The notes under the pieces: generated by a model
Database searches by the model: none
What the model was told of the DNA's origin: nothing
What the model saw: the letters and a program-made list of their open reading frames with translations, nothing else
Assembly: GCA_012270065.1 (NCBI GenBank)
Contig: JAAXJB010000032.1
Location: forward strand, 87,559-138,767
From: Rubripirellula sp.
GTDB taxonomy: Bacteria; Planctomycetota; Planctomycetia; Pirellulales; Pirellulaceae
Length of the DNA stretch: 51,209 bases
Direction: 5' to 3'
Position numbers and translations under genes: made by a program
Part shown: positions 15,796 through 51,163 of the stretch, in pieces
How the letters are laid out: the number at the start of each line of letters is the position of its first letter
Position numbering within the stretch: the first letter of the stretch is position 1

Positions 15796-18700
15796 TCAAT
15801 TCGTCAGAAACAAGTCGCTTTTGACAACCTCATGGACCATCCGTCGTAATCGGGCATCTTTGCCGCCGAGAAGTTTGACAATCTTGTCCAATTCACCCCG
15901 GTCGGTAGGATCAAGTCGGCGACCTATGGCATAGGTCAGCATTTTGGTGACGAGGCACTGCACAATTTGAATTCGACGTTGTTTTAGCATCTGTTTGAAT
16001 TCAACAATGTCCGTGATTGACTCGCCAGTCGACAGGGTGGTGGTGGTGTCAATTGGGACTCGCGTTCGTTTGTATTGGTCTCGCCATCGCCCGACGACAT
16101 CAAAGTTCTCGAAGGCGAATCCCATCGGGTCAATTTTCGCATGGCAACTTCTGCACGCCTCGTGTTTCCGGTGCAGTTCCAGTTGTTCGCGAACGGTTTT
16201 GGCTTCGCGAGTGTTGGTTGGAAGTGGTTCAACGTCGGGAGGTGGTGGGTTTGGGGGTGTGCCCAGCACATTTTCAAGCAGCCACGATCCACGGATGACG
16301 GGAGAAGTTTCGACACCATTGGCTGTGGCTGTCATCACACCCGGCAGCGTGAAGATTCCGCCGCGTCTTGGATCGTTCAAGGCGATTCGCTTGAGTTGAT
16401 CACCCCGAATTCCTTCCCTTTTGTAGATCCATTTGGCCAGTGTGCTGTTCATGTAAGTGTGGTCGGAGTCGATGAACTCTTCGATCCGTCCGTCGGCATC
16501 AAGCACATCTGCAAAGAATGTTGTCACCTGTTCCATCAGCATTGGTTCGACTTTCAGATTCTTGTAGAACTGGTAATCGCCGCCAGAAGGAGGCATCTTG
16601 CCAAGTTGATCCATCCGAAGCCAGGTTGATGTGAAGTGGTGAGTGAAGGCAGCAGCCTTCGGGTCTTGCAGCATCCGTTCTACCTGCCGTTCCAGTTCAG
16701 ATGGTGTTGCCAGTTTGCCAGCCCCCGCCAGTTCAAGAAGAACAGTGTCCGGCATGGAGGACCACAGAAAGTAGCTCAAGCGACTTGCGATTTGGTAGTC
16801 ATTCAGCCGTCCGGGTTCTTCTTTCAGATAGAGGAATTGGGGTGAACACAGGATGGCAGCGTAACCATCTTGCATTGCCCTGATCAAACTTGGCTTTCGG
16901 TTACGGCTTTTATCGGATTTTTGGGTGTGGAGACTCTCCTTGGACAGACGCTGATGCCCGAAGCCAGGACCACTCCAGCCCGCGCGGAAACTGTTGGGTT
17001 GGCCGTAGGCGAGGTACTCGATCTGAATCGAATGTTTACCGGCGGGTAAATCGATTTTCTGTTTGCGGTGTGAGGCACCGTGAAGGCCATCGTGTTCCAG
17101 TAGCGTGGTGCCATTGATGATGATCCGTGCTCCGTCATCAGATGCCATCTCAAACAGGTACTGACCTGCATTGTCTGTATGCAGCGATCCAGTGAAGACG
17201 ATCGCGAAATAATCTTCTTTTCTGGAAACAGCAAGATCGACATAGCCCTGATCGAGTTTGCCAATCCGTGCCGGTGTCAGGTTCTTGAAATCCGGAAGCT
17301 TGCCCCATTTGCCCTCGTAAACCTTGTATTCAAGGTCATTGATACCACTTTGCATGTTGACGATTGCATTGGCGTTCTGCTGAAGCACCAGTTGCACGTA
17401 GGGTTCGATTTCAGTGGCGGTCACTGGTCGTCGAAAGGCACGCTGTGCGAATTGCCCCAGTAGTTGCCGGACTTCAGTTTCGGTTCCTGATCCTGTTCCG
17501 TACAACGCAGTGTGGCTTTTCGGAGGCCAAGTGGGGATGATCGGAGTCAACGTCAGTCGATGGACCCTGATATGCGGTCCCTGGTAACCTTCCCGAAACA
17601 GCACGCGGGTCATTTTCTCGGGCCATTGGTCGTGTCCTGCCTTGTCGTCTTTCTTGTCAGGACGCGGGTGGTAGCTTTCCGGGAAGTAGGACTCAACGAT
17701 TTTTTCAGAACGGAAATTGCGGTCATGCTGTCCATTCTCCCAGCCAATCCATGGGATCCATCCTTCATCCATCCATGTCGTTGTGGTGAAAGTGTGGTGT
17801 TTGCCGTCGGCAGGTATTGTCCATAGTGCAAGTGGGGTTGAGGTCGGCCCTTCAATGCCGCGATTGCCAGTGTCGGCCATGTTCAAGCAGAGTTGGAAAG
17901 GCGAATTCGCATCGAGTGAGAACATGTCTTGCCATGGATGGTCACGGTGGTGTGCGGAAACCTCCACGGTGATCCGGTACTCGGCGGAAAAGCCAACCCC
18001 ACGTTTCAGCTCGGACGGAGCCAGCCTGCCATATCTTTCGTACCCCTGGGCAAGCATGTCAAACTCGGGATTGAATTCCCGTGATACTGTTTCAATCAGG
18101 TGCTCACCATTTCTCCTGCCAGTGACCAGGTGTCCTCCAAATTCGAGGGGGGAAGCGTCTGGCCGAGGTTCCAGATGCGTGGCCTGGTCAAGGGCTTCTT
18201 CTGAGGCTTGCAGGATGAGCTTCAGAAGAAAGTCAGACATCACAAGGCGATCGCCAAGGTTGAAAAAGCCATCTTCTTCTTCATCCTCCGGGAAAAAACG
18301 TAGCGGGTCCGTTCCAGTTCGCTCCACACTTCCGTTGCCATTGTTGTCGGTCAGTTTTGAACCGGTAGCACCAGGCCGGTAATCTGCTCCCCGCAGGTAC
18401 AGGAGATCGCGAAGTGTATTTCTCAGTTCGTGGCGGTTGAGTCGTCTGAGAACTGTGTGACCACCAGTGTGGCGGGTATTCTCGTAAGCTTTACCAAGAG
18501 ACGCGGTGATCACTTCAATGGCCTGTTTTGCGTCCTCCACTCCGGGTTGTTGTTGCTCTGCCGGAGGCATGGCGCCGAGATTCAACTGGTCGAGAACGTT
18601 TTGCCAGACTTCAAGAGTCGTTACCTTGCCCAGGTCAATGTCAAGGTTGTCAAGTCTGATATCACCCTCGCGTTCATGTTCACTGTGGCATTCGTAGCAG

Positions 18701-18870
18701 TGTTGCTTCAGAAATGGCTTGATCTTGATGAGGGCAGGTTCTGCATTGGCCGAAATTCCGTGGAACGCAAAGACATTCACCAAGAAGACAATGAACAGGA
18801 CCAGCAGTCTGTTGATTTGCGGGATGTAGCCCAAGGTTGATTCGTTGGCGGAGAATGGGAATGACAACAT
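15796..18870 (-). CDS. Exported planctomycete cytochrome (PSCyt1-PSD3-PSD5-PA14-PSD4-PSCyt3-PSD2)
   Basis: A 1024-aa protein of the DUF1592 type. After a signal/anchor (RLLVLFIVFLVNVFAF, about residues 21-36) comes PSCyt1 with haem motif CYECH (58-62) and NLGAMPP. PSD3/DUF1587 begins near residue 140 (VLRRLNRHELRNTLRDLL). A PSD5/DUF1595-like start (FAQRAFRRPVTATEIEPYV, about 473) is interrupted by a PA14 domain (about 511-640) before LCSPQFLYL resumes. PSD4/DUF1592 follows (ASRLSYFLWSSMPD), then PSCyt3/DUF1588 with TPPNPPPPDVEPLP and the second haem motif CRSCH (906-910), KIDPMGFAFENFD, and PSD2/DUF1585 to the end. Function is unknown; two CxxCH motifs predict covalent haem. PA14 often binds carbohydrate. 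It is last in the run DUF1501-DUF1552-PSD. An upstream ATG at 18921 is an alternative start. Confidence 0.93.
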   Translation of the reverse strand: MLSFPFSANESTLGYIPQINRLLVLFIVFLVNVFAFHGISANAEPALIKIKPFLKQHCYECHSEHEREGDIRLDNLDIDLGKVTTLEVWQNVLDQLNLGAMPPAEQQQPGVEDAKQAIEVITASLGKAYENTRHTGGHTVLRRLNRHELRNTLRDLLYLRGADYRPGATGSKLTDNNGNGSVERTGTDPLRFFPEDEEEDGFFNLGDRLVMSDFLLKLILQASEEALDQATHLEPRPDASPLEFGGHLVTGRRNGEHLIETVSREFNPEFDMLAQGYERYGRLAPSELKRGVGFSAEYRITVEVSAHHRDHPWQDMFSLDANSPFQLCLNMADTGNRGIEGPTSTPLALWTIPADGKHHTFTTTTWMDEGWIPWIGWENGQHDRNFRSEKIVESYFPESYHPRPDKKDDKAGHDQWPEKMTRVLFREGYQGPHIRVHRLTLTPIIPTWPPKSHTALYGTGSGTETEVRQLLGQFAQRAFRRPVTATEIEPYVQLVLQQNANAIVNMQSGINDLEYKVYEGKWGKLPDFKNLTPARIGKLDQGYVDLAVSRKEDYFAIVFTGSLHTDNAGQYLFEMASDDGARIIINGTTLLEHDGLHGASHRKQKIDLPAGKHSIQIEYLAYGQPNSFRAGWSGPGFGHQRLSKESLHTQKSDKSRNRKPSLIRAMQDGYAAILCSPQFLYLKEEPGRLNDYQIASRLSYFLWSSMPDTVLLELAGAGKLATPSELERQVERMLQDPKAAAFTHHFTSTWLRMDQLGKMPPSGGDYQFYKNLKVEPMLMEQVTTFFADVLDADGRIEEFIDSDHTYMNSTLAKWIYKREGIRGDQLKRIALNDPRRGGIFTLPGVMTATANGVETSPVIRGSWLLENVLGTPPNPPPPDVEPLPTNTREAKTVREQLELHRKHEACRSCHAKIDPMGFAFENFDVVGRWRDQYKRTRVPIDTTTTLSTGESITDIVEFKQMLKQRRIQIVQCLVTKMLTYAIGRRLDPTDRGELDKIVKLLGGKDARLRRMVHEVVKSDLFLTN

Positions 18871-18964
18871 GAATCTGTTTTGGTACGTGGCGACAGAACA
18901 GTGCAGACAAGGCAGTGGCATTTTCTGTGGATCATGTCACTGCACCGGGGTAGTGCTTGAAAGA

Positions 18965-20269
18965 CTAGCTGGAAGAAAAATCGAGACCACGAAGACTTCC
19001 ATTGCTGGAGCCGAACTGATCGATCTCGAGCCCACTGTTCTGAAGTATCGATAGCAGCAAGTTGGCTGCTGGTACACGTTCTTGATCCGGCTGAGGATAA
19101 ACTTTGTGTTCGCCGTGTTTGAAACCACCGCCAGCCAGTACAAGAGGCAGGTTGGTAGTGGAGTGCGTGCCGGTTGCCATGCCGCATCCAAACAGAATCG
19201 CTGTGTGATCAAGAAGTGTGCCTCCGTTGAGCACGTCTTCCTGTGCCTTCAGCAGGTCGATCAGGTAAGCCATCATCGAAATCTGGAATCCTTCGATTTT
19301 CTTCAAGGCGGCAACCGGTTCATCACGTTCGCCGTGGTGCGAAAAACCGTGATAGCCACCACTTAAGCCGAAGTCGCCATTCACAAATCCACTTGTCATG
19401 GTGATGCATCTGGTGGAGTCGGTCTGCAATGCCAAAGCGATGATCTCGATCATCGCTTTGAGGTGCTCCTGCGTGCCGTTTCCCGGTTTAGGTTCCTTGG
19501 TGTCTGTTTTGGGCTTGGAGCGATCCAGCCAAGGTTCCAGTTGGGTGATTTTTTGCTCGAGCGTGCGCACCGAGTCAAAGTATTCCGACAGTTTTCGGCG
19601 ATCATTTTTGCTGATCGCACCGTTCATCGCTTTTGCCTGTTCTTTCACAACATCAAGAATGCTGGAATGTCTTTCCAGTTGCTTCTTTTGTTCACTGATT
19701 GCCTCGGCTGAATCTTCGTAAAACATTTTTCGATAGGCGGTGCGCAAATCGATTGATGGAACTTGGACTCCTGTTCTGGTGAAACTGAGCAGATTTCTTT
19801 CGTTGCAGCCGAGCGTCAGAGAGGGGAAGCGGGTGGCAGCGCCATGATGCTCGGCAAGCTTCTGATCCAGGCTGATATTTCCTTCTTTGTAGTTGTGCGC
19901 AAGGATGGGACGAACACCACTCAGCAGAACCGGGACGCCCTGATGTCCACCGGTGAATCCATGGTCCAGATTGGAAAATATCGTCAAGTCCTTGCGATGC
20001 TTTTCCAGTGCCGTCAGGGTTTCCGGCATTTCATAATTGGTCCCGGCTTGATCTGCTTTCGGAAAGAAGGCTTTCTGGTAAACACCGTAGTTGTTTGACA
20101 GGCAGACAAATCGTTTGACTTGGCTGCCTTCATCGGTTTGAGAGGCCTGTGCTGGTCGGGGCACGGCTTCCAGCAGGGGTAATGCCATCACCACGCCACC
20201 GCTACGCAAAAACTTACGACGTCCAAATGATGGCTTCATGAGATTGGCTTTCGGAGGGATTGGCTTCAT
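18965..20269 (-). CDS. Tat-exported DUF1552 protein
   Basis: A 434-aa protein with a twin-arginine signal (FGRRKFLRSGGVVMALPLLEA). DUF1552 features seen are VKRFVCLSNNYGVY near the start of the mature part, LTIFSNLDHGFTGGHQGVPVLLSG, the DYFDSVR-like helix (LSEYFDSVRTLEQKI), ALALQTDSTRCITM, the YHGFSHHGE histidine cluster, and DHTAILFGCGMATGTHSTTNLPLVLAGGG close to the C-terminus. Function is unknown; the family is almost always encoded beside PSD cytochromes, as here (43-94 bp before the PSD gene, depending on its start). ATG 20239 is an alternative start that brings the RR motif nearer to the N-terminus. Confidence 0.95.
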   Translation of the reverse strand: MKPIPPKANLMKPSFGRRKFLRSGGVVMALPLLEAVPRPAQASQTDEGSQVKRFVCLSNNYGVYQKAFFPKADQAGTNYEMPETLTALEKHRKDLTIFSNLDHGFTGGHQGVPVLLSGVRPILAHNYKEGNISLDQKLAEHHGAATRFPSLTLGCNERNLLSFTRTGVQVPSIDLRTAYRKMFYEDSAEAISEQKKQLERHSSILDVVKEQAKAMNGAISKNDRRKLSEYFDSVRTLEQKITQLEPWLDRSKPKTDTKEPKPGNGTQEHLKAMIEIIALALQTDSTRCITMTSGFVNGDFGLSGGYHGFSHHGERDEPVAALKKIEGFQISMMAYLIDLLKAQEDVLNGGTLLDHTAILFGCGMATGTHSTTNLPLVLAGGGFKHGEHKVYPQPDQERVPAANLLLSILQNSGLEIDQFGSSNGSLRGLDFSSS

Positions 20270-20422: not shown

Positions 20423-21877
20423 TCAGCTGAAGAGTTCTTCGATGATTTTTCCCGAGGTGATTGGGTGTGGTCGGCCTTCACGATCCTGCAAGGCACCCGT
20501 TGTGGGGATGCCCAGAGCATCAATGATGGTTGTGCCAAAGTCACTTGGCGTGACCGGGGCGGATTTGGGGTAGGCGGCATGTGCATCGCTGGTGCCATAG
20601 GTCATCCCACCTCGGATTCCACCGCCGGCCAGCAATCCGGAGTAACAGTAAGGCCAATGTTCTCGGCCGGAGTTTTTCTCACTGATTTGTGGTTTTCGTC
20701 CAAATTCGCCGACCCAGACCACCAGTGTTTCTTCCAGCATGCCACGGTTATTGAGGTCGTCCAGAAGTGCGCTCAATGCCATGTCTGCCGGCGGAATCAA
20801 ATCGTCTTTCAGACGAGTGAAGTTGTTGCCATGGGTATCCCAGAAATTCTTGCCATCGTTGTGCCAGGTTACGGTAACCAGCGGGACACCGTGTTCAACC
20901 AGGCGCCGAGCCATCAGGACGGATTGACCGTGTGTGTTGCGCCCATACCTGTCGCGAACAGCTTCAGGTTCTTTGGCCAAATCAAATGCCCTGCGAACTC
21001 TTGATGAGGTCAACAGTTCAATTGCACGTTCCTGATGTGCTTGCGCATCTGCGATTGAACGCGGCAATGATGTGATCTGCTGCCCGGTGATTGTTTGCCG
21101 GTTGAGGATCTTTAATAGTTCATAACGTGATTCGAGGCGTTCCAGCGTGATGTCCGAAGGTAGACTTAGCGTAGATGGTTTCCAGTCACTGGCGTTCGGG
21201 TCACCAGTCAATAGCATGCCGTCGTGTGCTTTTCCAAGCCAGCCACCATGTTGTCCCGGAGCTTCGCCGCCGGGCGCGGCCGGGTGAAACGCTTTCCAGG
21301 GCAGTGTGACGAAGGAAGGCAAGCCATTGGTACTCGGTCGTACTTTCGAAACCAGCGAGCCAATGTGCGGTGAGTCGCGATCACTGGGCGGGGTTGCATC
21401 GCTGTTGATAACGGGTGCAAGTTGTCCTGTAACCGTCGCGTGTCCACTTGAAAGATGTGCGGGGTCGCTGTGAGAGAGTGAACGGACGATGGCCAGTTTG
21501 TCGACATGTTGCGTGAGTTTTTGGAAGTGCTCACAGATCTGAATTCCGGGAACATTGGTCGAAACCGGCTTGAAGGAACCACGGATCTCCTCGGGTGCGT
21601 CCGGTTTGAGGTCAAAGGTGTCAAGTTGGCTGGGTCCGCCCCACATGAAAAGAAAAATACATGACTTGGCCGCTTTTCGCCCACTGTTGGTTCGAAGTGC
21701 GTTGGGCACCAGGTCGTTTCCGTGCAAACTTTTGGCATTCCAGAATTCAGGCAGACCAAGCCCAAGCGCGGTCAAAGCACCAGCTCTCAGCAAAGCCCGT
21801 CGGTTTCCACGTTGCAAAGATGCAAACTCTCGACAGCTCTGAAGGTGTTTGTGAATTGGTATGGCAGGATTGGCCAT
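20423..21877 (-). CDS. Tat-exported DUF1501 protein
   Basis: A 484-aa protein. The signal region GNRRALLRAGALTALGLGLPEFW is a twin-arginine type. DUF1501 hallmarks follow: SCIFLFMWGGPSQLDTFDLKPDAPEEIRG, ICEHFQKLTQHVDKLAIVRSLSH, GHATVTGQL, LVEHGVPLVTVTWHNDG, ETLVVWVGEFGRKPQI, GREHWPYCYSGLLAGGGIRGG and DFGTTIIDALGI. The family is related to the alkaline phosphatase/sulfatase superfamily; the GGPSQLDTFD and EFGRKP plus GREHW blocks would supply metal ligands. No substrate is known. I use ATG 21877; the frame extends to an ATG at 21952 with no better signal. It is first of a three-gene leftward run and diverges from the PSCyt2/PSD1 gene at 22242. Confidence 0.95.
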   Translation of the reverse strand: MANPAIPIHKHLQSCREFASLQRGNRRALLRAGALTALGLGLPEFWNAKSLHGNDLVPNALRTNSGRKAAKSCIFLFMWGGPSQLDTFDLKPDAPEEIRGSFKPVSTNVPGIQICEHFQKLTQHVDKLAIVRSLSHSDPAHLSSGHATVTGQLAPVINSDATPPSDRDSPHIGSLVSKVRPSTNGLPSFVTLPWKAFHPAAPGGEAPGQHGGWLGKAHDGMLLTGDPNASDWKPSTLSLPSDITLERLESRYELLKILNRQTITGQQITSLPRSIADAQAHQERAIELLTSSRVRRAFDLAKEPEAVRDRYGRNTHGQSVLMARRLVEHGVPLVTVTWHNDGKNFWDTHGNNFTRLKDDLIPPADMALSALLDDLNNRGMLEETLVVWVGEFGRKPQISEKNSGREHWPYCYSGLLAGGGIRGGMTYGTSDAHAAYPKSAPVTPSDFGTTIIDALGIPTTGALQDREGRPHPITSGKIIEELFS

Positions 21878-22142
21878 GGCTTGCGGTTGATGGATTGCTG
21901 TTTTAGGCGGGGGAACGCTGACAGGCCTGTGATGCTGACAGCAAATGGTCATCTGCAGCTCACGGGGAGTTCATTTGCGCTGTCACTTGATGATGATCGT
22001 TGATTCTATGTGATTCAGCCATCGATGTCATGTTCAGGTCAAAGGCGTGCTTCCAGTCACGTTCATGAACGATTTTTTTGGCGGTGTTGTCATCATTTAC
22101 GTTGAATGTTGGGTTTGTCCTGGCAGGAATGACAACGGGATC

Positions 22143-22241: not shown

Positions 22242-25200
22242 ATGAACGATGGCTTGCAGCGTCCAAAACCAGCTCTTTCTATTCCCTGTGTGATGTCGGC
22301 GATGCTTTTCGCGGCAGCGTGCCTGTCGATCCGAGTCTCGCAAGCGGATCAACCTCAGAATGATGGCAGGACCAAAGCAGTAATTGCCGCAGATCACGCA
22401 GAAAAATTCCGGAAAGGGACGGTGCTTTTTCAGGAGAATGTCCGTGCAATCCTGACCTCGCATTGCCTGAAATGCCATGGTGGTGAGTCAGTCAAAGCGG
22501 ATTTTGATTTGTCGACGAGGTCAGCGTTGATGGAAAGTGGTCATGTCGCAAAGACCGCGTCAGACAGCCATCTGTTCCATGTCATTAATCATACGGCTGA
22601 ACCTGTCATGCCACTGAAGGCTGCAAAACTATCTGATGATGCGATCGAACTGGTCCGACGTTGGATTGACCTCGGTGCGCCATATGACAAGCCGCTGGTA
22701 AAAGGTGAAAAAACCGATGAACCCATGCGTGTGAAGGAGGCGGATCGCAATTTCTGGTCCTTTCTACCGTTGACTGACGTACCGGTTCCGACGGTTGAGC
22801 ATGAACAATGGTGCCGAACTCCTGTCGACAGGTTCATTCTGGCCCGGCAGGAGGCTTCCGGTTTGTCTCCGAATTCAGATGCTGATGCCAGAACGCTGAT
22901 CCGTCGTGGAGCATTTGACTTGTTGGGTTTGCCGGCGACTCTCGGACAGGTCAAAAAGAATGCTGGCCGCCTGAATGATGAAAGTTGGTCAAGGTATATC
23001 AAGGAATTACTTGATTCACCTCATTATGGTGAACGTTGGGCGCGGCATTGGATGGACGTGGCCAGGTTTGCTGAGTCACACGGTTATGAACAGGATTATG
23101 ATCGGCCAAACGCCTATCATTACCGTGATTTTCTCATTCAGGCGTTCAATGAAGACCTGCCTTACGACCGATTCATTGAGTGGCAGTTGGCTGGAGATGA
23201 ATTGGAACCCGAAAATCCGCAAGCAATGATGGCGACAGGATTTCTTGGGGCGGGGGTATTCCCGACACAACTGACAGAAGCTGAATTTGAATCAGCCAGG
23301 TATGACGAACTGGATGACATGGTGACAACCACTGGCGTTGCTTTTCTGGGGTTGTCTGTTGGTTGCGCTCGTTGCCATGATCACAAATTCGATCCCATCC
23401 CGTCGCGCGACTACTATCGAATGGCTGCAACTTTCACGACAGCGATTCGCAGTGAAGTGTTGTTGGATCTGGACCCCGACGAAAACAGACGGCGTCGGCG
23501 GGAGCAGGCAGGAAAAATCACAAAGCTGGAAAAAAGCATTGCAGATTACGAGCGGCAGAATGCTCAGAAAGCATTTTCAGAATGGATTGAGGGATACGAA
23601 GACGGAAAAGCTGAGCCGTGGCAAGTGTTGAATGTGCTTGAGGTCAGGTCATCAGCCGGGTCGACGTTCAAGTCTCAGGGAGACGGGTCGTGGTTGGCCA
23701 CAGGCAAGGCACCCCAGCAGGATGAATTGACGATCATTGCCGAGTCGGATCTGGATCAGGTTTCCCGTTTGCGCATCGAAGCTTTGACACATGGATCATT
23801 ACCCCGAAAAGGCCCGGGGCGTGCTGACAACGGAAACTTTGCTCTCGGCAATGTTGAACTCAGTTTCGTTGAGATCGATGGGGAAAATGGTCAGAACGAG
23901 CGGAATCCTGAACATGGGAAGGCTGATCGTGAACAGAACATTGTCGGGAAAAGCATTGCTGTCGATTTGACAAAGGCCTCTGCAACGCATCAGCAGAATA
24001 CCAGCAGCCTGTCGGTCATGGCGTCGATTGATGATGATCCGGTTTCCGGTTGGGCCGTGGATCATGGGGGAATCGGCAAGGATCAGGCGGCCGTATTCGA
24101 ATTCGCGGAAACGGTCAATCTGAAAGGCAGAGTCCGCTGGTTGCTTCGCTTGCGGTTTCACCATCCAAACCATCGTCACGCGATGGGGCGGATTCGGATC
24201 TCCCTTTCCAATCGCCCTGACGCGCCGGTGGCAGTCGGGAGTGAAGATGGGATTGCGCACATGCGCACCGCATTAACAGAGGCAAAACTGAATCGCGATC
24301 CTGAATCAAAAGCTTGGAAGGAGTGTTTGAAGTGGTTCGTTACCACTTTGCCCGAATGGCAGAAAAAGAAACAGCAACTGGAAGAGCTTCGCAAGCAAGG
24401 TGATGGTGCCAAACTGACCAAGGTGATGGTGACAAGCGAAGGTCTGCCTCATATGAAACACCACGCTGATGGCAGAGGTTTCCCGCACTTTTATCCAGAA
24501 ACTCATTTTCTCAAGCGTGGTGATGTTCAGCAGAAGCAAGAGGTCGTGAAGGCAGGTTTTCTACAGGCCCTGACACCTGCGGACATCGATGAAACACGAT
24601 GGGTTGCCAGGAGTCCGCGGACTGACCCACGCACAAGTTTTCGCAGAGCAACTTTGGCGAACTGGATGACTGATGTTGATTCAGGGGCCGGAGCTCTTGT
24701 CGCCCGGGTAATCGTCAATCGTGTCTGGCAGCATCACTTTGGAAAAGGACTCGTTGCTACGCCCAATGATTTTGGAACGTCAGGTGATGAACCGACCCAT
24801 CCTGAACTGTTGAACTGGCTCGCCAAGGATTTTGTTGATCACGGTTGGCAGCTCAAGCGTCTGCATCATCTCATCATGACAAGCAGCGTCTATCGACAGT
24901 CTGCAGGTCATGATGAACGAAGGGCAACGCTGGACCGGGAAAATGAACTTCTGTGGCGTTGGCAGCCAAGACGACTGGAAGCAGAGGCCATTCGTGATTC
25001 TTTGCTGGCCGTGTCAGGCATGCTCGACACTCGGATGTACGGTCCAGGAACGCTTGATCCGAAAATGAAACGCCGCAGCATCTATTTCTTCATCAAACGC
25101 AGCAAGTTGATCCCGGAGATGATGCTGTTTGATTGGCCCGAGCATCTGGTCAGTATTGGAAGCAGATCGAATACCACGGTTGCTCCCCAGGCACTGATGT

Positions 25201-25466
25201 TTCTGAATAGCCCCCAAGGACGCCGGTATGCTGCTTCTCTGGTATCGAGATTGACCGGAGAGTCGGTTGAAGAAAACGTGGTTTCTGCCTATCAGCTGGC
25301 ATTTTCACGATCGCCAAGCGAAGTTGAAAAAAAGAACTGTCTGGCCTTTGTCAGTCAGCAGGAAACGGTTTACCGGCAGAAAAATCTCAAAGACCCTCGT
25401 CATGCCGCGCTTGTAGATCTTTGCCAGGCGCTGATGAGTACAAGTGAGTTCATTTACGTCGAGTAG
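22242..25466 (+). CDS. Exported planctomycete cytochrome (PSCyt1-PSCyt2-PSD1; DUF1549/DUF1553)
   Basis: A 1074-aa protein with a signal sequence (about residues 12-36, ending VSQADQ). PSCyt1 carries CLKCHGG (75-79). PSCyt2/DUF1549 (about 190-400) has PVDRFILARQEASGLSP, DLLGLPAT, SPHYGERWARHWMDVARFAES, DLPYDRFIEWQLAGDE and the second haem motif GCARCHDHKFDPI (375-379). A middle region of about 400 residues with a coiled-coil-like start and a beta-rich, probably ligand-binding domain follows. PSD1/DUF1553 closes the protein: RVIVNRVWQHHFGKG, PNDFGTSGDEPTHPELLNWLA, HHLIMTSSVYRQS and AQALMFLNSP-like segments. Haem attachment is expected but function is unknown. A DUF1501 gene follows 78 bp downstream, the usual partner. 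Confidence 0.95.
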   Translation: MNDGLQRPKPALSIPCVMSAMLFAAACLSIRVSQADQPQNDGRTKAVIAADHAEKFRKGTVLFQENVRAILTSHCLKCHGGESVKADFDLSTRSALMESGHVAKTASDSHLFHVINHTAEPVMPLKAAKLSDDAIELVRRWIDLGAPYDKPLVKGEKTDEPMRVKEADRNFWSFLPLTDVPVPTVEHEQWCRTPVDRFILARQEASGLSPNSDADARTLIRRGAFDLLGLPATLGQVKKNAGRLNDESWSRYIKELLDSPHYGERWARHWMDVARFAESHGYEQDYDRPNAYHYRDFLIQAFNEDLPYDRFIEWQLAGDELEPENPQAMMATGFLGAGVFPTQLTEAEFESARYDELDDMVTTTGVAFLGLSVGCARCHDHKFDPIPSRDYYRMAATFTTAIRSEVLLDLDPDENRRRRREQAGKITKLEKSIADYERQNAQKAFSEWIEGYEDGKAEPWQVLNVLEVRSSAGSTFKSQGDGSWLATGKAPQQDELTIIAESDLDQVSRLRIEALTHGSLPRKGPGRADNGNFALGNVELSFVEIDGENGQNERNPEHGKADREQNIVGKSIAVDLTKASATHQQNTSSLSVMASIDDDPVSGWAVDHGGIGKDQAAVFEFAETVNLKGRVRWLLRLRFHHPNHRHAMGRIRISLSNRPDAPVAVGSEDGIAHMRTALTEAKLNRDPESKAWKECLKWFVTTLPEWQKKKQQLEELRKQGDGAKLTKVMVTSEGLPHMKHHADGRGFPHFYPETHFLKRGDVQQKQEVVKAGFLQALTPADIDETRWVARSPRTDPRTSFRRATLANWMTDVDSGAGALVARVIVNRVWQHHFGKGLVATPNDFGTSGDEPTHPELLNWLAKDFVDHGWQLKRLHHLIMTSSVYRQSAGHDERRATLDRENELLWRWQPRRLEAEAIRDSLLAVSGMLDTRMYGPGTLDPKMKRRSIYFFIKRSKLIPEMMLFDWPEHLVSIGSRSNTTVAPQALMFLNSPQGRRYAASLVSRLTGESVEENVVSAYQLAFSRSPSEVEKKNCLAFVSQQETVYRQKNLKDPRHAALVDLCQALMSTSEFIYVE

Positions 25467-25544: not shown

Positions 25545-27050
25545 ATGAATGAGCCAAATTCTCGCGAAGCAAATCAGCCAGAACCAGAAGGTTTATTGAG
25601 TCGCCGCAGTCTGCTCGCCCGGGCCGGTTGCGGTTTCGGGATGCTTGGTCTGACTGGGATGCTGCAGCAGCAGGGAGTGCTGGGACGGGCTGACGCGTCT
25701 GATCTGGGATCGGACCGTTCGCTCAATCCGTTGGCCCCGAGACCTGGGCACTTTCCGGCAAAAGCCAAACATGTGATCTGGATCTTCGTTAATGGTGGGC
25801 CAAGTCATGTTGATACATGGAATTACCGCCCGGAATTGACAAGATGGAACGGAAAATCGATCCGCGAGTTCGATGCCGAGTTCAAGAACACCACCGGATT
25901 TTTCAAAAATTCGGTGGGGAATCTCATGCAGTCGCCGTTCAAGTTCACGCCGCAGGGTGAGTCTGGGAAAATGGTCCCGGAGATTTTTCCGCATCTCGGC
26001 AAGCATGTTGACAAAATGGCGTTTCTGTTGTCGGGGCACACGGAATCCAATAACCATTCCCCTGCCCTGTTTGCCATGAATACGGGAATGCCACGCATGG
26101 GATTTCCCTGCGTTGGTTCATGGGCGACCTACGGACTTGGCAGTGAGAGCAGCAACTTGCCGGGGTTTGTTGTCATGAGTGATCCAAAGGGACGTGGCCT
26201 GCCAAAAGGTCACGCAGCAAACTGGAGTGCAGGGTTTCTTCCCGGGGTGTACCAGGGAACTTATCTTCGCCCCACCGGCGAGCCGATTGACAACCTCGTT
26301 CGCCCTGAAGAGTTGGGTGTCACTGGACAACGCAGGCAACTCGATCTGATCAAACAGCTCAATCAGGAACACCTGGATCGAAATGCTGCCGAAAGTGAAT
26401 TGGCCGCGCGAATCGAGAGTTTTGAATTGGCTTTCCGGATGCAGACGGCGGCCCCCGAAGCTCTGGACCTCGCGGCTGAGCCGAAACATGTGCAGGATCT
26501 TTATGGCATTGGCGATGACCGTTGTGACCACTTTGCAAAGCAGTGCCTGATGTCTCGGCGTTTGGTTGAACGGGGGGTCAGATTTGTACAGATCTATTCA
26601 GGTGGCATGGAGAACCAGAGATCATGGGATGGGCACAACGATATCCAAGGCAACCACCGGCAATTCGCAGGCGAGACCGACCAACCGGTTGCCGGTTTGC
26701 TCGAAGATCTTCACCAACGCGGGTTGTTGGACGAGACGCTTGTCGTTTGGTGTGGCGAATTTGGCCGTTTGCCGATTGCGCAGACCGGTGCCAAGCCTGG
26801 TCGCGATCACAATCCCCATTGTTTCTGTGCGTGGTTGGCCGGGGCGGGTATCAAAGGCGGAATGGACTACGGAGCGTCGGATGAAATTGGATTCAAAGCT
26901 GCTGATGACAAGGTTCATGTGAATGACCTGCACGCGACTCTGCTCCATCTCATGGGGATAGATCATGAGCGTCTGACATACAAGTACAACGGAAGACGTT
27001 TTCGGCTGACGGATGTCGCCGGCCATGTCATCAAGGATATCCTTGCCTGA
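25545..27050 (+). CDS. Tat-exported DUF1501 protein
   Basis: A 501-aa protein with an N-terminal twin-arginine signal (LSRRSLLARAGCGFGMLGLTGML). The mature region shows DUF1501 blocks: HVIWIFVNGGPSHVDTWNYRPEL, FPHLGKHVDKMAFLLSGHTESNNHSPALF, LVERGVRFVQIYSGG, WDGHNDIQGNHR, ETLVVWCGEFGRLPIA, GRDHNPHCFCAWLAGAGIKGG and VNDLHATLLHLMGIDHERLTYKYNGRRFRLTDV. These correspond to metal-site regions of the alkaline-phosphatase-like superfamily. The tail matches the subgroup that pairs with PSCyt2/PSD1 cytochromes, encoded immediately upstream. Fifteen-bp tandem repeats begin 10 bp after the stop. Confidence 0.96.
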   Translation: MNEPNSREANQPEPEGLLSRRSLLARAGCGFGMLGLTGMLQQQGVLGRADASDLGSDRSLNPLAPRPGHFPAKAKHVIWIFVNGGPSHVDTWNYRPELTRWNGKSIREFDAEFKNTTGFFKNSVGNLMQSPFKFTPQGESGKMVPEIFPHLGKHVDKMAFLLSGHTESNNHSPALFAMNTGMPRMGFPCVGSWATYGLGSESSNLPGFVVMSDPKGRGLPKGHAANWSAGFLPGVYQGTYLRPTGEPIDNLVRPEELGVTGQRRQLDLIKQLNQEHLDRNAAESELAARIESFELAFRMQTAAPEALDLAAEPKHVQDLYGIGDDRCDHFAKQCLMSRRLVERGVRFVQIYSGGMENQRSWDGHNDIQGNHRQFAGETDQPVAGLLEDLHQRGLLDETLVVWCGEFGRLPIAQTGAKPGRDHNPHCFCAWLAGAGIKGGMDYGASDEIGFKAADDKVHVNDLHATLLHLMGIDHERLTYKYNGRRFRLTDVAGHVIKDILA

Positions 27051-31052: not shown

Positions 31053-31063
31053 GATTCTCTCCA

Positions 31064-35155: not shown

Positions 35156-35498
35156 CTGGTCCATTTGCTTGTCTGACGTGTACTCGAAGCAGTGCGGTTG
35201 AGTGTGCGGTGTGGAGTTGTGCAGCATGCCCCATGTGCTCGGATACAGGATGATGCTTCCTGTAATGTACTTGAACAGCATTCAAGCCGGGTTCGCTCAA
35301 TATGAACGGATTCGATCTTCCACGAACAGCAGTTCGCTGCTCGGTTGCATGTCGAAGATAGCCGACTCCACTTCAAGACGGGGGCGGAAGGAGAAACATG
35401 GGAGGATGCAAATTCTGGAGTGGCACGAACACCCCGCAAGATTGGTAATTGAGCCGCTCCATTACCAATCTGCAAATCTGCCAAAACATGATGGAAGG
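35156..35498. other. Intergenic region between a PSD gene and a tRNA gene
   Basis: About 340 bp upstream of the leftward PSD gene. The reverse frame stays open to 35281 but has no signal-like sequence. No clear promoter was identified. Confidence 0.4.
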
Positions 35499-35572
35499 CA
35501 TCCCCGACAGGATTCGAACCTGTAACCTTCGGCTCCGGAGGCCGACGCGCTATCCAATTGTGCCACGGGGAC
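35499..35572 (-). tRNA. tRNA-Arg (anticodon CCG)
   Basis: Read on the minus strand, the 74-nt sequence folds as a tRNA. The acceptor stem GTCCCCG pairs with CGGGGAT (terminal G-U). The anticodon stem is TCGGC/GCCGA around loop CTCCGGA (anticodon CCG at 35536-35538, reading CGG). The T arm is ACAGG-TTCGAAT-CCTGT and the discriminator is G. The 3' CCA is not encoded (CCT follows). The D stem GCAC/GCGC has one A-C mismatch. Confidence 0.95.
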
Positions 35573-35934
35573 GGCTGTGCTTGTCCAAAGGAGTCACGGA
35601 CTCACACCGTTGAATTTTGACATGATGACGGCCTTCTGTGTGCTTGCAACCGTAATATTCCGTCTTGCCATGGACTTTGTTCGAGGCAGTTTCGAATCCG
35701 ATGAAGGAGTGAATTGGCGAAGTTGCTGCCCAGCATTTGGACTTCGGGAATGCCTGAGGCACGGTCATTTCAGGGGTGCGCGGCACTGGATCCGGCGATT
35801 TCTGCCAAAAAACCTGTTGGTTTTCATGCAGAAACAGCCCTTTAGGGGGGGGTGTTTTGCGGTGTTTTTGATTCACTCGTTGTGATTTGCGTGCTATCTT
35901 ACGTAGAGAAAAGCCTGAAACCGCAGATAGACGC
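35573..35934. other. Intergenic region upstream of the DUF1559 gene
   Basis: About 360 bp containing a G7 run near 35845 and T-rich stretches but no convincing gene or terminator. The promoters of the tRNA and of the DUF1559 gene should lie here. Confidence 0.4.
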
Positions 35935-38825: not shown

Positions 38826-38877
38826 GGTTGAGTTCCTCATGGAAAGAGAGAGGAAGAATAGGCACGATCAAGTTGCA

Positions 38878-43465: not shown

Positions 43466-43487
43466 GAAGCCTGAGTTGGATTCTGTT

Positions 43488-46640: not shown

Positions 46641-46865
46641 TTCGGATGGACTCCGTCGGTGATGCGGGTATCAATGAACCCTCCCAGTGTACCCGGATGC
46701 GACTCGTTCCAACGCCAGAGCACGTTTTGAGTCGGGCAAAATGTGCTGGAACACTGAAATTTGGGAACGCCAGATATGTTGTGGGAGGTGCTGTCTGTTC
46801 GTGATGTTATACTGGAACCGAAGGATCGTCGTCCCACCTGCTGCCCGTTTCCCACCGTTTTAGAT

Positions 46866-49601
46866 ATGCCAAGATCCAAAATGCGTTTTGGTCTCCTCTT
46901 CAGCATTTTCATGCTGTTGTTGGTCAACCACGTTTTCGTTTCACCTTGGGTTCTTGGTGAAGATGGCGGCACGAGTGAATCGTCGGTGGAAAGTCACAGT
47001 CTTTCCTTTGATGAAATCAAAGCGTCTGGTGCCAAACGTTCTCGTTACGCCTCTGGTGGCTTCAAGCCGTTGACGGGTGAGACACCCAAGCCGGATCTGC
47101 ATCAGTTCAAGCAGGCTGTGTTGCCGAATCTCAGGCGTTTCTGCATGGACTGCCATGATGCAGATGTTCAGGAAGGGAACTTGCGAATAGACACTCTGAA
47201 TCCTGACTTGCAAACGGGAGACGACATCAGTTGGTGGCTGGAGGTGCTTGCTGTATTGACCAATGGTGAAATGCCGCCGCCTGACGCAGAGGAATTGCCG
47301 GATGCCGATCGCGCCAGACTTGTTCAATGGTTATCGTCTGAAATTCAAGTCGCTTCTGTCGTTCGCCGATCCAAACGGGCGTCCTCGTCATTTCGCAGGA
47401 TGACGAAGTACGAGTACAACCATGCGTTGCAGGATTTGCTCGGATTGCCATGGGATTTTGCCAAGGACCTGCCTCCGGAAGCTGTTTCAGATGACGGTTT
47501 CCAGAACAGTTCGGATTTGCTGCATATGACTGGCATGCAATTGGACACGTATCGCGCAAGTGCGCGACGCGCTTTGCAGCGAGCCATGCCCTCAGGTGAC
47601 AGGCCTGAACCCTTGCACTGGTCTGTGTCAATGAAGCAGGCTTCCATGATCGAGTGGCCGAAACATGCAGAACAGATCAAAAAAGCGGAAGAAAAATTTG
47701 CCGATGACCCCAGTAAACTGAAGGTGGAACTGGAGCGTTTGAAAAAAAGCTTCCGTCAACCGCATGGTGGAACGTACTTCCGTGATCAGAGAAGTGGTCA
47801 CACCATTCGTTCAAGCTGGGCCTATTACGGAGCGAAGTACGCGCATTCGCCGGTGGAAAAACTGGAAGCTTTCCCAGCCAACTCTGATCATGATGCCGTG
47901 ATTCCAAGGGGCCAGGGGCTGATTGTAGAATTGGGTGATCAAATTCCTGATCATGGCATGATGCGTGTGAGGGCGCGGGCATCTCGCGGGCCTGACGCCG
48001 GGGAGGCGATCCCGAGTCTGCAGCTTCAGTTCGGCTGGAGAGCAAGTAACGAAGGGCGTGCCCTGCTTCGGGTGAGTGCTGAGGACGTTGAAGTCACAGC
48101 TGACCCGGATCAGCCTGCGATCTATGAATGGACTGTACCGCTTGGCGAAATCTACCCACGCAACTCGGTTCGAAATGTGACCAAAATGGGTGCGATGCCC
48201 AATCCTTCGGAATACATCCGGTTTTATAACAATTCCGTTTCGCAGGGCGATATCCAGATTGACCACGTTCAGGTCTCAACTCCCGTTTACGATACATGGC
48301 CACCAAAATCCTGCACGGACATCCTGCTTGAACGTGATCCAGAAGAAGATGAACGGGACCACGTCAGGAAGGTTCTGGCCACTTTCATGCAAAGGGCATG
48401 GAGACGTCAGATTTCGGCGGATGAAATTGATCTGAAAATTGACTTTTTCAAGACGATACGCCCCGAATGCGAAACGTTTGAGGAGGCTGTTGTTGAAGTT
48501 CTCGCCTCGGTTTTGTCGTCACCGAATTTCCTGTATTTACGACGAGCGGGACTTGGCGGAGCGGCGAGTCAGGATGAGCGGGTGGGGCATCTGACAGACA
48601 TTGATCTGGCAACCCGTTTATCGATGTTCCTGTGGTGCAGTGTTCCTGACGAAGAATTGTTGAGTCTCGCGATCAATCAGAAACTCGGAACGCCCGAAGT
48701 CCTTGAACAGCAAGTCGTTCGTATGTTGAGCGATCGTCGAGCAGATCGATTCGCCAGACAGTTCGTGATGCAATGGTTGGGCATGCAGACATTGGAGTAT
48801 CTGGACATTGATCGAAAGACCAGACCTCAATTCACTCCCGCGTTAAAAGAAGCAATGATGCATGAACCGGTGGCCTTCTTCAGTGAGGTTCTGGGCGGAA
48901 ACCGGAGTGTGCTCGATTTCATTCACTCCGACTTTGCGATGCTCAACGAGGTCCTTGCGCGGCACTATGGGATTCATGGGATCACGGGAAATCGGTTTCA
49001 ACGGGTTTCGCTCAACTTGGAACAGCGTCGTGGTGGTGTTTTGACTCAAGCCGGTCCCTTGACGATGAACTCAGCTGGCAATGATTCACATCCCCTGAAA
49101 CGGGGAATCTGGTTGTTGGAGAACCTTCTAAACGATCCACCGCCACCACCGCCACCAGCCGTTCCGGAGATTGATTTGGCGGATCCGGAAATTGCCAAGT
49201 TGACTTTGAAGGAGCAGCTTGCAAATCACAGGAATCAGGCCGCATGCATGTCTTGCCATGCAAAAATTGATCCTTGGGGGATCGCCTTCGAAAATTTTGA
49301 TGCATTGGGACGCTGGAGAAATCAGATTGAGGGGCAGCCGGTCGATGCGACCAGTCGGCTTTTCAATGACCAGCAATTGGATGGAATGGATGGGTTGAAA
49401 AAATTCATTTTGGCGAATCGTCAGGATCAGTTTGTGCGTGCCCTGACCTACAAACTGTCTGCTTATGCTGTTGGCAGACCTTTGACCTTTGCCGACCATG
49501 CTTCCGTGGACCGGATTGTCGCCGGCGTGCGGCAGCGCAATGATGGACTCGCAGACTTGATCCGATTGATCGTGACGAGTGATCTGTTTCGCGAACCTTG
49601 A
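46866..49601 (+). CDS. Exported planctomycete cytochrome (PSCyt1-PSD3-PSD5-PSD4-PSCyt3-PSD2)
   Basis: A 911-aa DUF1592-type protein. The signal sequence (MRFGLLFSIFMLLLVNHVFV) starts at residue 6, so ATG 46866 or ATG 46881 could be used. PSCyt1 has CMDCH (93-97) and NGEMPPPDAEELPD. PSD3 shows FRRMTKYEYNHALQDLLGLP. A middle region contains a beta-rich domain. PSD5 is contiguous here (FMQRAWRRQISADEIDL to SPNFLYL), then PSD4 (ATRLSMFLWCSVPDEELL, ARHYGIHGITG), PSCyt3 with a run of seven prolines in DPPPPPPPAVPEI and CMSCH (794-798) in KIDPWGIAFENFDALGRWR, and PSD2. Its DUF1552 partner starts 179 bp downstream. It diverges from the methyltransferase-propeller fusion. Confidence 0.95.
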   Translation: MPRSKMRFGLLFSIFMLLLVNHVFVSPWVLGEDGGTSESSVESHSLSFDEIKASGAKRSRYASGGFKPLTGETPKPDLHQFKQAVLPNLRRFCMDCHDADVQEGNLRIDTLNPDLQTGDDISWWLEVLAVLTNGEMPPPDAEELPDADRARLVQWLSSEIQVASVVRRSKRASSSFRRMTKYEYNHALQDLLGLPWDFAKDLPPEAVSDDGFQNSSDLLHMTGMQLDTYRASARRALQRAMPSGDRPEPLHWSVSMKQASMIEWPKHAEQIKKAEEKFADDPSKLKVELERLKKSFRQPHGGTYFRDQRSGHTIRSSWAYYGAKYAHSPVEKLEAFPANSDHDAVIPRGQGLIVELGDQIPDHGMMRVRARASRGPDAGEAIPSLQLQFGWRASNEGRALLRVSAEDVEVTADPDQPAIYEWTVPLGEIYPRNSVRNVTKMGAMPNPSEYIRFYNNSVSQGDIQIDHVQVSTPVYDTWPPKSCTDILLERDPEEDERDHVRKVLATFMQRAWRRQISADEIDLKIDFFKTIRPECETFEEAVVEVLASVLSSPNFLYLRRAGLGGAASQDERVGHLTDIDLATRLSMFLWCSVPDEELLSLAINQKLGTPEVLEQQVVRMLSDRRADRFARQFVMQWLGMQTLEYLDIDRKTRPQFTPALKEAMMHEPVAFFSEVLGGNRSVLDFIHSDFAMLNEVLARHYGIHGITGNRFQRVSLNLEQRRGGVLTQAGPLTMNSAGNDSHPLKRGIWLLENLLNDPPPPPPPAVPEIDLADPEIAKLTLKEQLANHRNQAACMSCHAKIDPWGIAFENFDALGRWRNQIEGQPVDATSRLFNDQQLDGMDGLKKFILANRQDQFVRALTYKLSAYAVGRPLTFADHASVDRIVAGVRQRNDGLADLIRLIVTSDLFREP

Positions 49602-49780: not shown

Positions 49781-51163
49781 TTGAACACTCTGGATCGTCG
49801 GCGTTTCCTTCGTGGTGCCGGTATGGCGCTCTCCTTGCCATTGCTCGCTTCGACGGGGGTTGCTGCTGAGCGGACCGGAAATCCGCGTCGTCTCGGATGT
49901 TTCTATTTTCCAGATGGCGTGCCCATGCCGCTGAAGGAAGATCCGGCGTATCAGGATTGGTCCTGGTTCCCACACGGCAACGGCAGGGAGTTCGAGTTTA
50001 CGAAGTGCTTCGAATATCTCGCCCCGTTGCGAAAACAGATGACCGTCTTGTCAGGCTTCTCACACCCACATGGCCGAATCGTACACGGTCACAATAACGC
50101 AGATCAGTTTTTGACTGCAGCGGCTACCGGTGGCGGTGATATGGATTACCGGAATACCATTTCACTGGATCAGGAATATGCGTCCCGGATTGGCAGCCAG
50201 ACCCGGTTTGCTTCGTTGGTGATGTCAACCGATGGTGGCACGGGAACGGCGCGCGGTGCACATACATTGTCTTTCGACCGCAATGGACGGGCGATTCCGG
50301 CGGAACATCGTCCCAAACGTATCTTTGACATGCTTTTTGTCAAAAGTGACGGTGATGCAGCGAAGCGTCTGGCTTTCAGCAAGAGCGCGCTGGATCAGAT
50401 GATGGCTGATGCACGCGCTTTGCGGGCAACCCTGTCAGTTGATGATAAACGACGTCTGGATGAATACCTGGATTCCGTGCGTCAGACCGAGATCAAGGTC
50501 GAAAAGGCAAAGCGTTGGATCAATACGCCACTCCCGACTGTTGAGGTAGACCATCTGAATCTGGATGTTACGCCGAATGATCCGCGTTTGTATCTTCAAA
50601 CAATGTTTGAATTGATCTTTCTTGCCTACAAAACAGATTCCACTCGCGTTGCGACCTATCAGATTGGGCGGGAAAATGGCGTTGGTCAGAGTGATTATCT
50701 GGCCCGTGCTGTTGGCTTCAATCTTTCGCATGCATTGTCCCATGACACCAAAAAAGAAAATGGGTGGAAGAATTTCGGTATCTACTGTCAATTCCTGAAC
50801 GAAGAATTTGGCCGCTTTGCAAGTAAGTTGCGTGATACGCCAGAGCCGGCGGGCGATGGCAGCATGCTGGACAATACGTTGCTACTGTATGGTTCGGCGT
50901 CCAGCGCTTTTCATCTATCACGCAATTACCCTCTGGTGCTCGCTGGTGGAAAGAACATGGGGTTCAAGCACGGACAATACATCAATCATGCGGGCGGGAG
51001 TCCGCAGGGTGGCCATTGGACTGGGGGGCAGGAGCCATGGCAGAAAGAAATTACACGTGAAGATCTGCCGCTCTCGAATGTGTTTGTCACCATGTTGCAG
51101 CAACTTGGCGTAGAAACCGATCGTTTTGCCGATAGCACCGGAACCATCAGTGCATTGATCTGA
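49781..51163 (+). CDS. Tat-exported DUF1552 protein
   Basis: A 460-aa protein with the twin-arginine signal LDRRRFLRGAGMALSLPLLAS. Family blocks are RRLGCFYFPDGVPMPL, MTVLSGFSHPHGRIVHGHNNADQFLT, TISLDQEYASRIGSQTRFASLVMSTDGG, LDEYLDSVRQTEIKVEKAKRW, LIFLAYKTDSTRVATYQIG, DNTLLLYGSASSAFHLSRNYPLVLAGG and DLPLSNVFVTMLQQLGVETDRFADSTG. I place the start at TTG 49781; the only good Shine-Dalgarno (AAAAGGGCAGG, 49753-49763) lies 17 nt upstream of it and 5 nt before an in-frame ATC at 49769. The partner PSD gene is directly upstream. The window ends 46 bp after the stop. Confidence 0.94.
   Translation: MNTLDRRRFLRGAGMALSLPLLASTGVAAERTGNPRRLGCFYFPDGVPMPLKEDPAYQDWSWFPHGNGREFEFTKCFEYLAPLRKQMTVLSGFSHPHGRIVHGHNNADQFLTAAATGGGDMDYRNTISLDQEYASRIGSQTRFASLVMSTDGGTGTARGAHTLSFDRNGRAIPAEHRPKRIFDMLFVKSDGDAAKRLAFSKSALDQMMADARALRATLSVDDKRRLDEYLDSVRQTEIKVEKAKRWINTPLPTVEVDHLNLDVTPNDPRLYLQTMFELIFLAYKTDSTRVATYQIGRENGVGQSDYLARAVGFNLSHALSHDTKKENGWKNFGIYCQFLNEEFGRFASKLRDTPEPAGDGSMLDNTLLLYGSASSAFHLSRNYPLVLAGGKNMGFKHGQYINHAGGSPQGGHWTGGQEPWQKEITREDLPLSNVFVTMLQQLGVETDRFADSTGTISALI

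Follow-up and report, generated by a model that had tools for sequence, protein, structure and literature searches.

Paired PSD and DUF1501/DUF1552 proteins of a Rubripirellula genome: a candidate two-part exported enzyme related to sulfatases

What do the paired genes for exported cytochrome-like proteins and their DUF1501 or DUF1552 neighbors encode, and which of the two partners is likely to carry the chemistry? The question is raised by a 51,209-nucleotide stretch of the Rubripirellula sp. assembly GCA_012270065.1 (contig JAAXJB010000032.1, positions 87,559 to 138,767; hereafter, the window), part of a 6.99 Mb genome, in which five such pairs, denoted A to E, lie within 35 kb, against an expectation of 0.7 per 35 kb. 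This density is the genome maximum; it is reached from three start points, of which this cluster contains two and contig C62 the third. Altogether, the genome encodes 58 DUF1552 proteins, 87 matches to DUF1501 (86 above the cut-off), 61 PSD4 and 79 PSD1 proteins (pieces merged), and no biochemistry for DUF1501 or DUF1552 was found in the open-licence literature. The answer that we tentatively favor is that each pair forms a two-part exported enzyme, in which the small partner (DUF1501 or DUF1552) would be catalytic by virtue of a remodelled alkaline-phosphatase site, and the haems of the large partner (the PSD protein) would wire it to respiration. Function becomes a testable question given the fold, the candidate site residues, the rule of partner choice and a sister system free of cytochromes.

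The partners are matched by class. In this genome, 128 of the 140 large proteins have the partner of their class within 4 kb: PSD4 proteins are found near 57 of the 58 DUF1552 genes, and DUF1552 near 55 of the 61 PSD4 genes, whereas PSD1 goes with DUF1501 (73/79, and 75/87 counted from the DUF1501 side). Cross pairs are at or below chance (7/61 for PSD4-DUF1501 and 3/79 for PSD1-DUF1552 vs about 11% and about 7% expected). Of the 12 DUF1501 genes that lack PSD1 within 4 kb, five gain one when the limit is extended to 6 kb, three are near PSD4 and four near neither; one of these four (C77:35163) has the only above-cut-off DUF1800 match of the genome directly upstream, and the other three are unexplained. 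The single DUF1552 that lacks a PSD4 match within 4 kb (G000:C48:50098-51030) is also the top scorer of the genome for the family. After length limits, the own-genome sets used below comprise 86 of 88 DUF1501, 79 of 89 PSD1 and 58 of 60 PSD4 frames.

The same arrangement is found in other genomes. Among 80 relatives of the E large protein, from records titled Planctomycetota and Verrucomicrobiota, among others, 77 have a same-strand DUF1552 gene no more than 2 kb away; of the three exceptions, two are cut off by the contig end, and the third, L026, lacks DUF1552 despite 2.9 kb of room. In L026, the sole relative of this kind, a DUF1501 gene of opposite orientation lies about 1.2 kb downstream. 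Across 99 genomes of the phylum, DUF1552 is present in 41 and PSCyt3 in 42, with both in 41, a single one in 1 (G059, the only discordant genome) and neither in 57 (Fisher p 3.5e-27, which is only a guide because the genomes are related). Most carriers (30/41) have one or two DUF1552 genes, and four, this genome included, have at least 20. Furthermore, the distance matrices of the partners are correlated among paralogs, with r 0.447 for PSD4-DUF1552 (54 pairs) and r 0.859 for PSD1-DUF1501 (71 pairs), neither value being reached in 2000 permutations; this mirror-tree comparison took in 54 of 56 and 71 of 74 pairs, with repeat use of the same small partner removed. This shows that the module pairs duplicate and diverge together. 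Thus, the class pairing is real and conserved in Planctomycetota and Verrucomicrobiota. An earlier note on this DNA, made from the letters of the sequence, had taken each pair for one device and had made this depend, in part, on conservation of the neighborhood; class pairing, neighbor conservation, co-occurrence and co-divergence all speak for that view.

An hhalign comparison of DUF1552 with DUF1501 covers most of the length with the probability of 97.7%, and the own-genome sets give 98.7% (E-value 2.7e-16). A Foldseek search started with the AlphaFold2 model of the E DUF1552 protein (predicted local distance difference test score, pLDDT, 83.3) identifies sulfatases, phosphonate monoester hydrolase and YejM as the top matches (best E-value 3.3e-6, prob 1.00). 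DUF1501, in turn, is similar to the family of the window's own sulfatase, with the hhalign probability of 96.3% (E-value 1.5e-9) over 44 columns; in a sequence search against solved structures, DUF1552 has no match, and DUF1501 has weak sulfatase-family matches, the best with E-value 0.02. These results suggest, from the model for DUF1552 and from profile similarity for DUF1501, that the two families constitute one superfamily with the alkaline-phosphatase/sulfatase fold, a relationship that is new here. Neither the DUF1552-DUF1501 relation nor the change of nucleophile discussed below was found described in the accessible parts of the open-licence literature. Pfam may already place DUF1501 in its alkaline-phosphatase clan.

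Under three alignment settings per family, H171 of the B DUF1501 protein and H104 of the E DUF1552 protein fall on Cys94, the first Cys of the sulfatase CCPTR motif. This nucleophile position is Cys in 70 of 72 sulfatases (the window's own and 71 of 77 matches kept by length, 34 from stretches of this genome and 37 from loci L001-L088). The aligned residue is His in 85/86 DUF1501 and 58/58 DUF1552 proteins of this genome, and it is accompanied by a conserved pair, D-x-H in DUF1501 and HxxxH in DUF1552, and by a later His: in DUF1501, D362, H364, R408 and H422 are conserved in 86/86 and E405 in 84/86, and in DUF1552, H104, D130, H317 and H321 are each conserved in 58/58. In the E DUF1552 model, H104 is located near a helix start (helix 103-107). 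The usual nucleophiles of the alkaline-phosphatase superfamily are derived from Ser, Thr or Cys, and both families have His instead. The formylglycine motif C/S-x-P-S/T-R is likewise absent from DUF1501, where His occupies the Cys position, Pro is present at +2 in 36/86 and position +4 is mostly L, I, Q, V or T; the Asp-Asn/His metal pair that follows the TLVV strand of sulfatases aligns with Glu-Phe (E405, with F406 in 80/86). These alignments suggest that the small partner is a remodelled phosphatase/sulfatase relative, with a histidine now in place of the catalytic residue. D362, E405 and H422 appear to be spaced much as the metal ligands are in phosphoglycerate mutase, which is a lead rather than a test. 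The proposal of the earlier note that the small protein might contain a metal gains support from the fold and the conserved His/Asp set.

The export signals set the two partners apart. When the first 110 residues of each stop-to-stop frame are scanned for a twin arginine followed by a hydrophobic stretch, a rule based on sequence and not an assay of transport, a twin-arginine translocation (Tat)-like signal is detected in 82/86 DUF1501 and 58/58 DUF1552 proteins, 1/58 PSD4 and 2/63 PSD1 proteins, and, as controls, in 2 of 34 sulfatases from those stretches of this genome that were fetched (the genome encodes at least 150) and in 17/356 other frames. The previously proposed split, with Tat export for the small part and not for the large one, is supported by these signal counts. 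Given that the signal is typical of the small partners and rare in sulfatases, Tat use appears to characterize this branch rather than the fold as a whole, and it fits cofactor loading in the cytoplasm.

The large partner carries two haem-binding motifs, from which covalent haem is predicted. Exactly two CxxCH motifs are present in 56/58 PSD4-type and 46/79 PSD1-type frames, whereas, among the 171 other open frames of 450 or more amino acids from the same stretches, only 9 contain any CxxCH. The PSCyt1 domain of PSD1-type proteins is similar to FoxE (E-value 2.8e-5) and cytochrome c-552 (E-value 6.8e-5); a sequence search of a PSD4 protein against solved structures yields chance matches only. 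The model of the E large protein (pLDDT 84.7) contains a run of strands in a segment without a Pfam match, and, among the 50 Foldseek matches listed, the only ones with E-values of 0.001 or lower are two CBM22 chains (E-value 7e-4), with CBM16 and further beta-sandwich proteins ranked next; nothing in the list matches the helical remainder well. Pfam identifies LamG (4), PA14 (3), CBM60, F5/8 and golvesin (1 each) in 53 PSD4-type proteins, and LamG (4), F5/8 types (3 each), NPCBM (2) and golvesin (2) in 48 PSD1-type proteins (those run against Pfam, out of 57 and 72, respectively, that are free of ambiguous bases). An hhalign comparison of whole PSD4 and PSD1 proteins finds only the shared PSCyt1 region, and with PSCyt1 removed the best result is 50.9% (E-value 1.5e-4).

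Further evidence on the division of labor comes from DUF1800. In 29 of 30 loci of DUF1800 genes (the best-scoring one per genome in 30 genomes of the phylum, the best 30 of 65 with a match), DUF1501 is the neighbor, and none of the 30 DUF1800 proteins contains CxxCH, so that a haem-linked redox step is not universal. The site is retained in 35 further DUF1501 proteins, namely the 29 from these loci and those of C77, Miltoncostaea, Rhizobium and Vibrio campbellii, 33 in all beside DUF1800, and two D-type ones of Vibrionaceae: the counterparts of H171 are conserved in 33 and those of D362, H364, E405 (as Glu or Asp), R408 and H422 in 35 each. Because the same site occurs beside a haem-free partner, the chemistry probably belongs to the small protein, to judge from these residues, and the haem would be an addition. 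The view of haem as part of the device thus stands with regard to the CxxCH motifs but not with regard to haem being essential. Among 14 control genomes, the same two (Caulobacter and Deinobacterium) carry DUF1501 and DUF1800. In hhalign, DUF1800 aligns with PSD4 at 74% (E-value 2.8e-5) and with PSD1 at 51% (E-value 1.5e-4), over 66 columns each, once 30 sequences were added to a profile of the first four that was too thin, and two PSD1 proteins encoded in this genome match the Pfam DUF1800 profile below the threshold (best E-value 1.4e-5). These similarities are suggestive of a possible relationship between DUF1800 and the PSD proteins; the order of the segments hints at a circular permutation, for which the scores are too weak to make a claim.

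Under the reading that we favor, the module would be a single two-part extracytoplasmic enzyme, a carbohydrate-binding metalloenzyme. The small partner, with its nucleophile replaced by the near-invariant His beside D-x-H or HxxxH and a later His, would fold in the cytoplasm, probably load a metal, and exit by Tat; the large partner would exit by the general secretory (Sec) route, receive two c-type haems and, in many cases, present the substrate through carbohydrate-binding-type domains, and the small partner, presumably in physical contact with it, would perform the chemistry. In planctomycetes and their relatives, the large partner would have gained the haems and with them the capacity to pass electrons to the periplasmic respiratory chain. 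In a more specific version, an unlikely one as it stands, DUF1501 and DUF1552 would be a redox branch in which the former nucleophile serves as the fourth ligand of a mononuclear 3-His/1-Asp (DUF1501) or 4-His (DUF1552) metal center that oxidizes glycans or another extracytoplasmic substrate, and one ancestral two-part device would have produced the haem-free DUF1800-DUF1501 pairs and the di-haem PSD1-DUF1501 and PSD4-DUF1552 pairs, about 130 of them in this genome. If the redox reading is true, a hydrolase superfamily has given rise to an oxidase or dehydrogenase.

Several observations weigh against the reading of the pair as a metal-dependent, haem-wired enzyme. The TM-scores of the Foldseek matches of the E DUF1552 model are low (0.3-0.5), the hhalign match of DUF1552 to sulfatases is weak on its own (83.8%, 30 columns), and the alignments that reach the nucleophile were forced to extend past their confident parts (44 columns for DUF1501 and 30 for DUF1552). 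H378 of DUF1552 is His in only 50/58 proteins, and the putative His/Asp cluster is a matter of alignment columns and not of distances in space. In 28 of 79 PSD1-type frames there is one CxxCH and in 3 there is none, and carbohydrate-binding-type domains are detected by Pfam in a minority of the large proteins only. The co-divergence of the partners could arise by co-duplication alone and does not by itself prove contact. Finally, according to a passage of PMC4452313, proteins encoded in DUF1501 gene clusters may be targeted to Sec, which would, though, fit the large partners.

The alternative that survives best, though on the unlikely side, is that the small partner has remained an alkaline-phosphatase-type hydrolase or transferase, with the His as a covalent nucleophile (phospho- or sulfo-histidine) or as a metal ligand only, and the large partner as a substrate-binding scaffold with non-catalytic haems. 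The sulfatase-like fold, the match at the nucleophile position, and a site conserved with or without haem in the partner, as in the haem-free DUF1800 pairs, are what this alternative would predict; the Glu-Phe in place of the Asp-Asn/His pair in most DUF1501 proteins and the Tat signal, which suggests a cofactor loaded in the cytoplasm, are not, and the two haem motifs kept in nearly all PSD4-type partners would need another reason. It is distinctly unlikely that the small partner is a non-catalytic protein of the same fold, a ligand binder or membrane holder of the large partner similar to YejM/PbgA, with the haem protein as the electron carrier or enzyme: YejM periplasmic domains are among the Foldseek matches and the usual nucleophile is absent, but the replaced position is itself conserved, the D, H, E, R, H set is kept in 84-86 of 86 DUF1501 proteins, as in a working site, and haem is dispensable in the DUF1800 pairs. 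That the large protein is a maturase similar to MauG, a di-haem enzyme that oxidatively modifies its substrate protein, and the small partner its substrate and the final enzyme, would account for two haem motifs in an exported protein with a dedicated partner, but is hardly credible, given the same small-protein site beside haem-free partners and the lack of a di-haem peroxidase fold among the 50 Foldseek matches listed for the E large protein (a weak test).

With regard to the substrate of the proposed enzyme, the earlier note had suggested oxidative processing of polysaccharides. The sulfatase and 3-keto-sugar context was considered as evidence and rejected, for in this genome adjacency within 5 kb is at or below chance: sulfatases are found near 10/58 DUF1552 (random mean 10.0) and 14/87 DUF1501 (15.1), and 3-keto hydrolases near 0/58 (3.2) and 4/87 (4.8), respectively. 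Within 10 kb, the respective values are 24/58 (16.7, with 25 of 1000 simulations reaching the observed number) and 29/87 (25.0, 201 of 1000) for sulfatases, and 4/58 (5.8) and 9/87 (8.9) for 3-keto hydrolases. The comparison includes the best 150 of 251 sulfatase candidates, 122 of them on module contigs, and 41 of 45 matches to 3-keto hydrolases, 32 on module contigs. Clustering of neighbors, made without a control, shows sulfatases to be recurrent (38 frames, of which 16 share the strand and lie no more than 400 bp away); other recurrent neighbors are 10 PQQ propellers, 9 cytochrome fusions of the DUF7133 type and 6 members of a family that matches PPC weakly. A weak sulfatase association may, therefore, exist. 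The link to polysaccharides is weak because of the chance-level adjacency. All five plasmid records matched by the B DUF1501 protein were also inspected, without a control set. The PSD1-DUF1501 pair on a Saccharobesus plasmid has genes for GH88, pectate lyase and a TonB receptor nearby, with cytochrome c and cytochrome b downstream; the Catenovulum pair adjoins fucP and has GH115, GH98 and GH43 within a 25-kb locus; the Haliscomenobacter pair is accompanied by TonB/SusD genes; and a further pair is found on a Singulisphaera plasmid. These loci suggest glycan use, although an abundance of glycan genes may be a general feature of such plasmids. Together with the carbohydrate-binding-type domains and the CBM-like fold in one model, they make for a weak glycan link.

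Within the window (Table 1), all five large proteins described in the earlier note are present, each with exactly two CxxCH motifs; the later ATGs chosen as starts for three of them (18870, 35155 and 46866) all exist, and the frames as given here reach 18921, 35281 and 46761. The six small neighbors, three DUF1501 and three DUF1552 proteins, are above the Pfam cut-off, have the predicted twin-arginine N-terminus and retain the full set of site residues; the 11-nt spacing holds for the C pair (from the end of the large gene at 31064 to the small-gene ATG at 31052). There are, indeed, five pairs, but of three kinds: PSD4-type/DUF1552 (A, C, E), PSD1-type/DUF1501 (B) and the divergent pair D. Module A also has an extra DUF1501 gene, whose partner is uncertain because the nearness of DUF1501 to PSD4 is at chance genome-wide. 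Several PSCyt/PSD domains are above the Pfam cut-offs in the large proteins A, B, C and E, and NCBIfam has no match to any of the ten module proteins searched (all except the E DUF1552). The D large protein reaches 23.4 bits for PSD4 (cut-off 23.3) and remains below the cut-offs for PSCyt3, PSCyt2 and PSD1. It is about 30% identical to the C-terminal part of approximately 2300-amino-acid frames that adjoin DUF1501 on two Vibrionaceae plasmids, of Vibrio maritimus and Photobacterium (E-values 4.8e-53 and 3.7e-55), and the nearest DUF1501 relatives of the D small partner (30.6% identity each) are located after those frames. By these similarities, the D type of pair is also found outside this genome and is no local oddity.

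Table 1. Coordinates, domains and motif or candidate site residues of the module proteins in the window
Feature	Coordinates	Strand	Domains and signals	Residues
A large partner	15796..18921	-	PSCyt1 haem, PSD3, PSD5, PA14, PSD4, PSCyt3 haem, PSD2 (Pfam)	1041 amino acids; CxxCH at C75, C923
A small partner	18965..20269	-	DUF1552 (Pfam), Tat signal	H109, D135, H307, H311, H369
Extra DUF1501 upstream of A pair	20423..21952	-	DUF1501 (Pfam), Tat signal	H166, D372, H374, E416, R419, H432
B large partner	22242..25466	+	PSCyt1, PSCyt2, PSD1 (Pfam)	1074 amino acids; CxxCH at C75, C375
B small partner	25545..27050	+	DUF1501 (Pfam), Tat signal	H171, D362, H364, E405, R408, H422
C small partner	29748..31064	-	DUF1552 (Pfam), Tat signal; likely ATG 31052	H107, D133, H322, H326, H377
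C large partner	31064..35281	-	PSD4 type (Pfam)	1405 amino acids; CxxCH at C86, C1282
D small partner	37527..38840	-	Divergent DUF1501 (68 bits, Pfam), Tat signal	H122, D288, H290, E331, R334, H346
D large partner	38903..41332	-	Divergent; weak PSD4, PSCyt3, PSCyt2, PSD1 matches	809 amino acids; CxxCH at C64, C461
E large partner	46761..49601	+	PSCyt1, PSD3, CBM-like beta-sandwich (model), PSD5, PSD4, PSCyt3, PSD2; likely start 46866	CxxCH at C128, C829
E small partner	49781..51163	+	DUF1552 (Pfam), Tat signal, putative alkaline-phosphatase-superfamily fold (model)	H104, D130, H317, H321, H378

Other genes of the window include a thioredoxin-like (AhpC-TSA) protein with TPR that adjoins the B pair (28032-29288, plus strand), proteins of this type being able to serve in cytochrome c maturation; a tRNA-Arg gene (anticodon CCG; 35497-35572, minus strand) directly upstream of the C operon and surrounded by modules of the cluster; and a DUF1559 protein with a prokaryotic N-terminal methylation motif (35887-36993, plus strand). 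A PQQ-type beta-propeller protein with a signal-like N-terminus (43488-46640, minus strand) shows, in its first 313 amino acids, a weak likeness to an S-adenosylmethionine (SAM) methyltransferase (UbiE, E-value 0.011, below the cut-off); a second PQQ_2 propeller is encoded at 11926-13629, and a gene for a 3-keto-disaccharide hydrolase lies near the A pair (13887-14876, plus strand).

Compared with known systems, the small partners share with S1 sulfatases (PF00884) the fold and a local profile match, and differ in the change of the nucleophile from Cys to His, in the Glu-Phe that replaces the Asp-Asn/His pair in most DUF1501 proteins, and in the Tat-like signal, where sulfatases have other signals. 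The periplasmic domain of YejM/PbgA, a membrane lipid-related protein that is not known to have a haem partner, is similar in its alkaline-phosphatase fold. FoxE and cytochrome c-552, which match the PSCyt1 of PSD1-type proteins by sequence, are not fused to PSD domains. The DUF1800-DUF1501 operons of bacteria, for which a passage of PMC5122149 describes a twin-arginine motif, share the DUF1501 family, the conserved residues, the signal and a dedicated large partner; the DUF1800 partner, however, lacks CxxCH, and its homology to PSD1 and PSD4 is suggestive only. A passage of PMC2754498 cites Studholme 2004. The closest precedent is that of He et al. 2017 (PMC5615132), a part of which reports that, in Verrucomicrobia, PSCyt2 and PSCyt3 genes usually neighbor two different unknown families, suggests roles connected with carbohydrates and notes carbohydrate-binding domains and a sulfatase neighborhood. 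The large-protein domains and the two-class neighbor pairing are the same, and as a gene organization the pair is, therefore, already described there; compared with that part of the source, the names of the neighbors, the proposed fold, the Tat routing, the residue conservation and the DUF1800 link come from the present analysis, which adds a testable mechanism.

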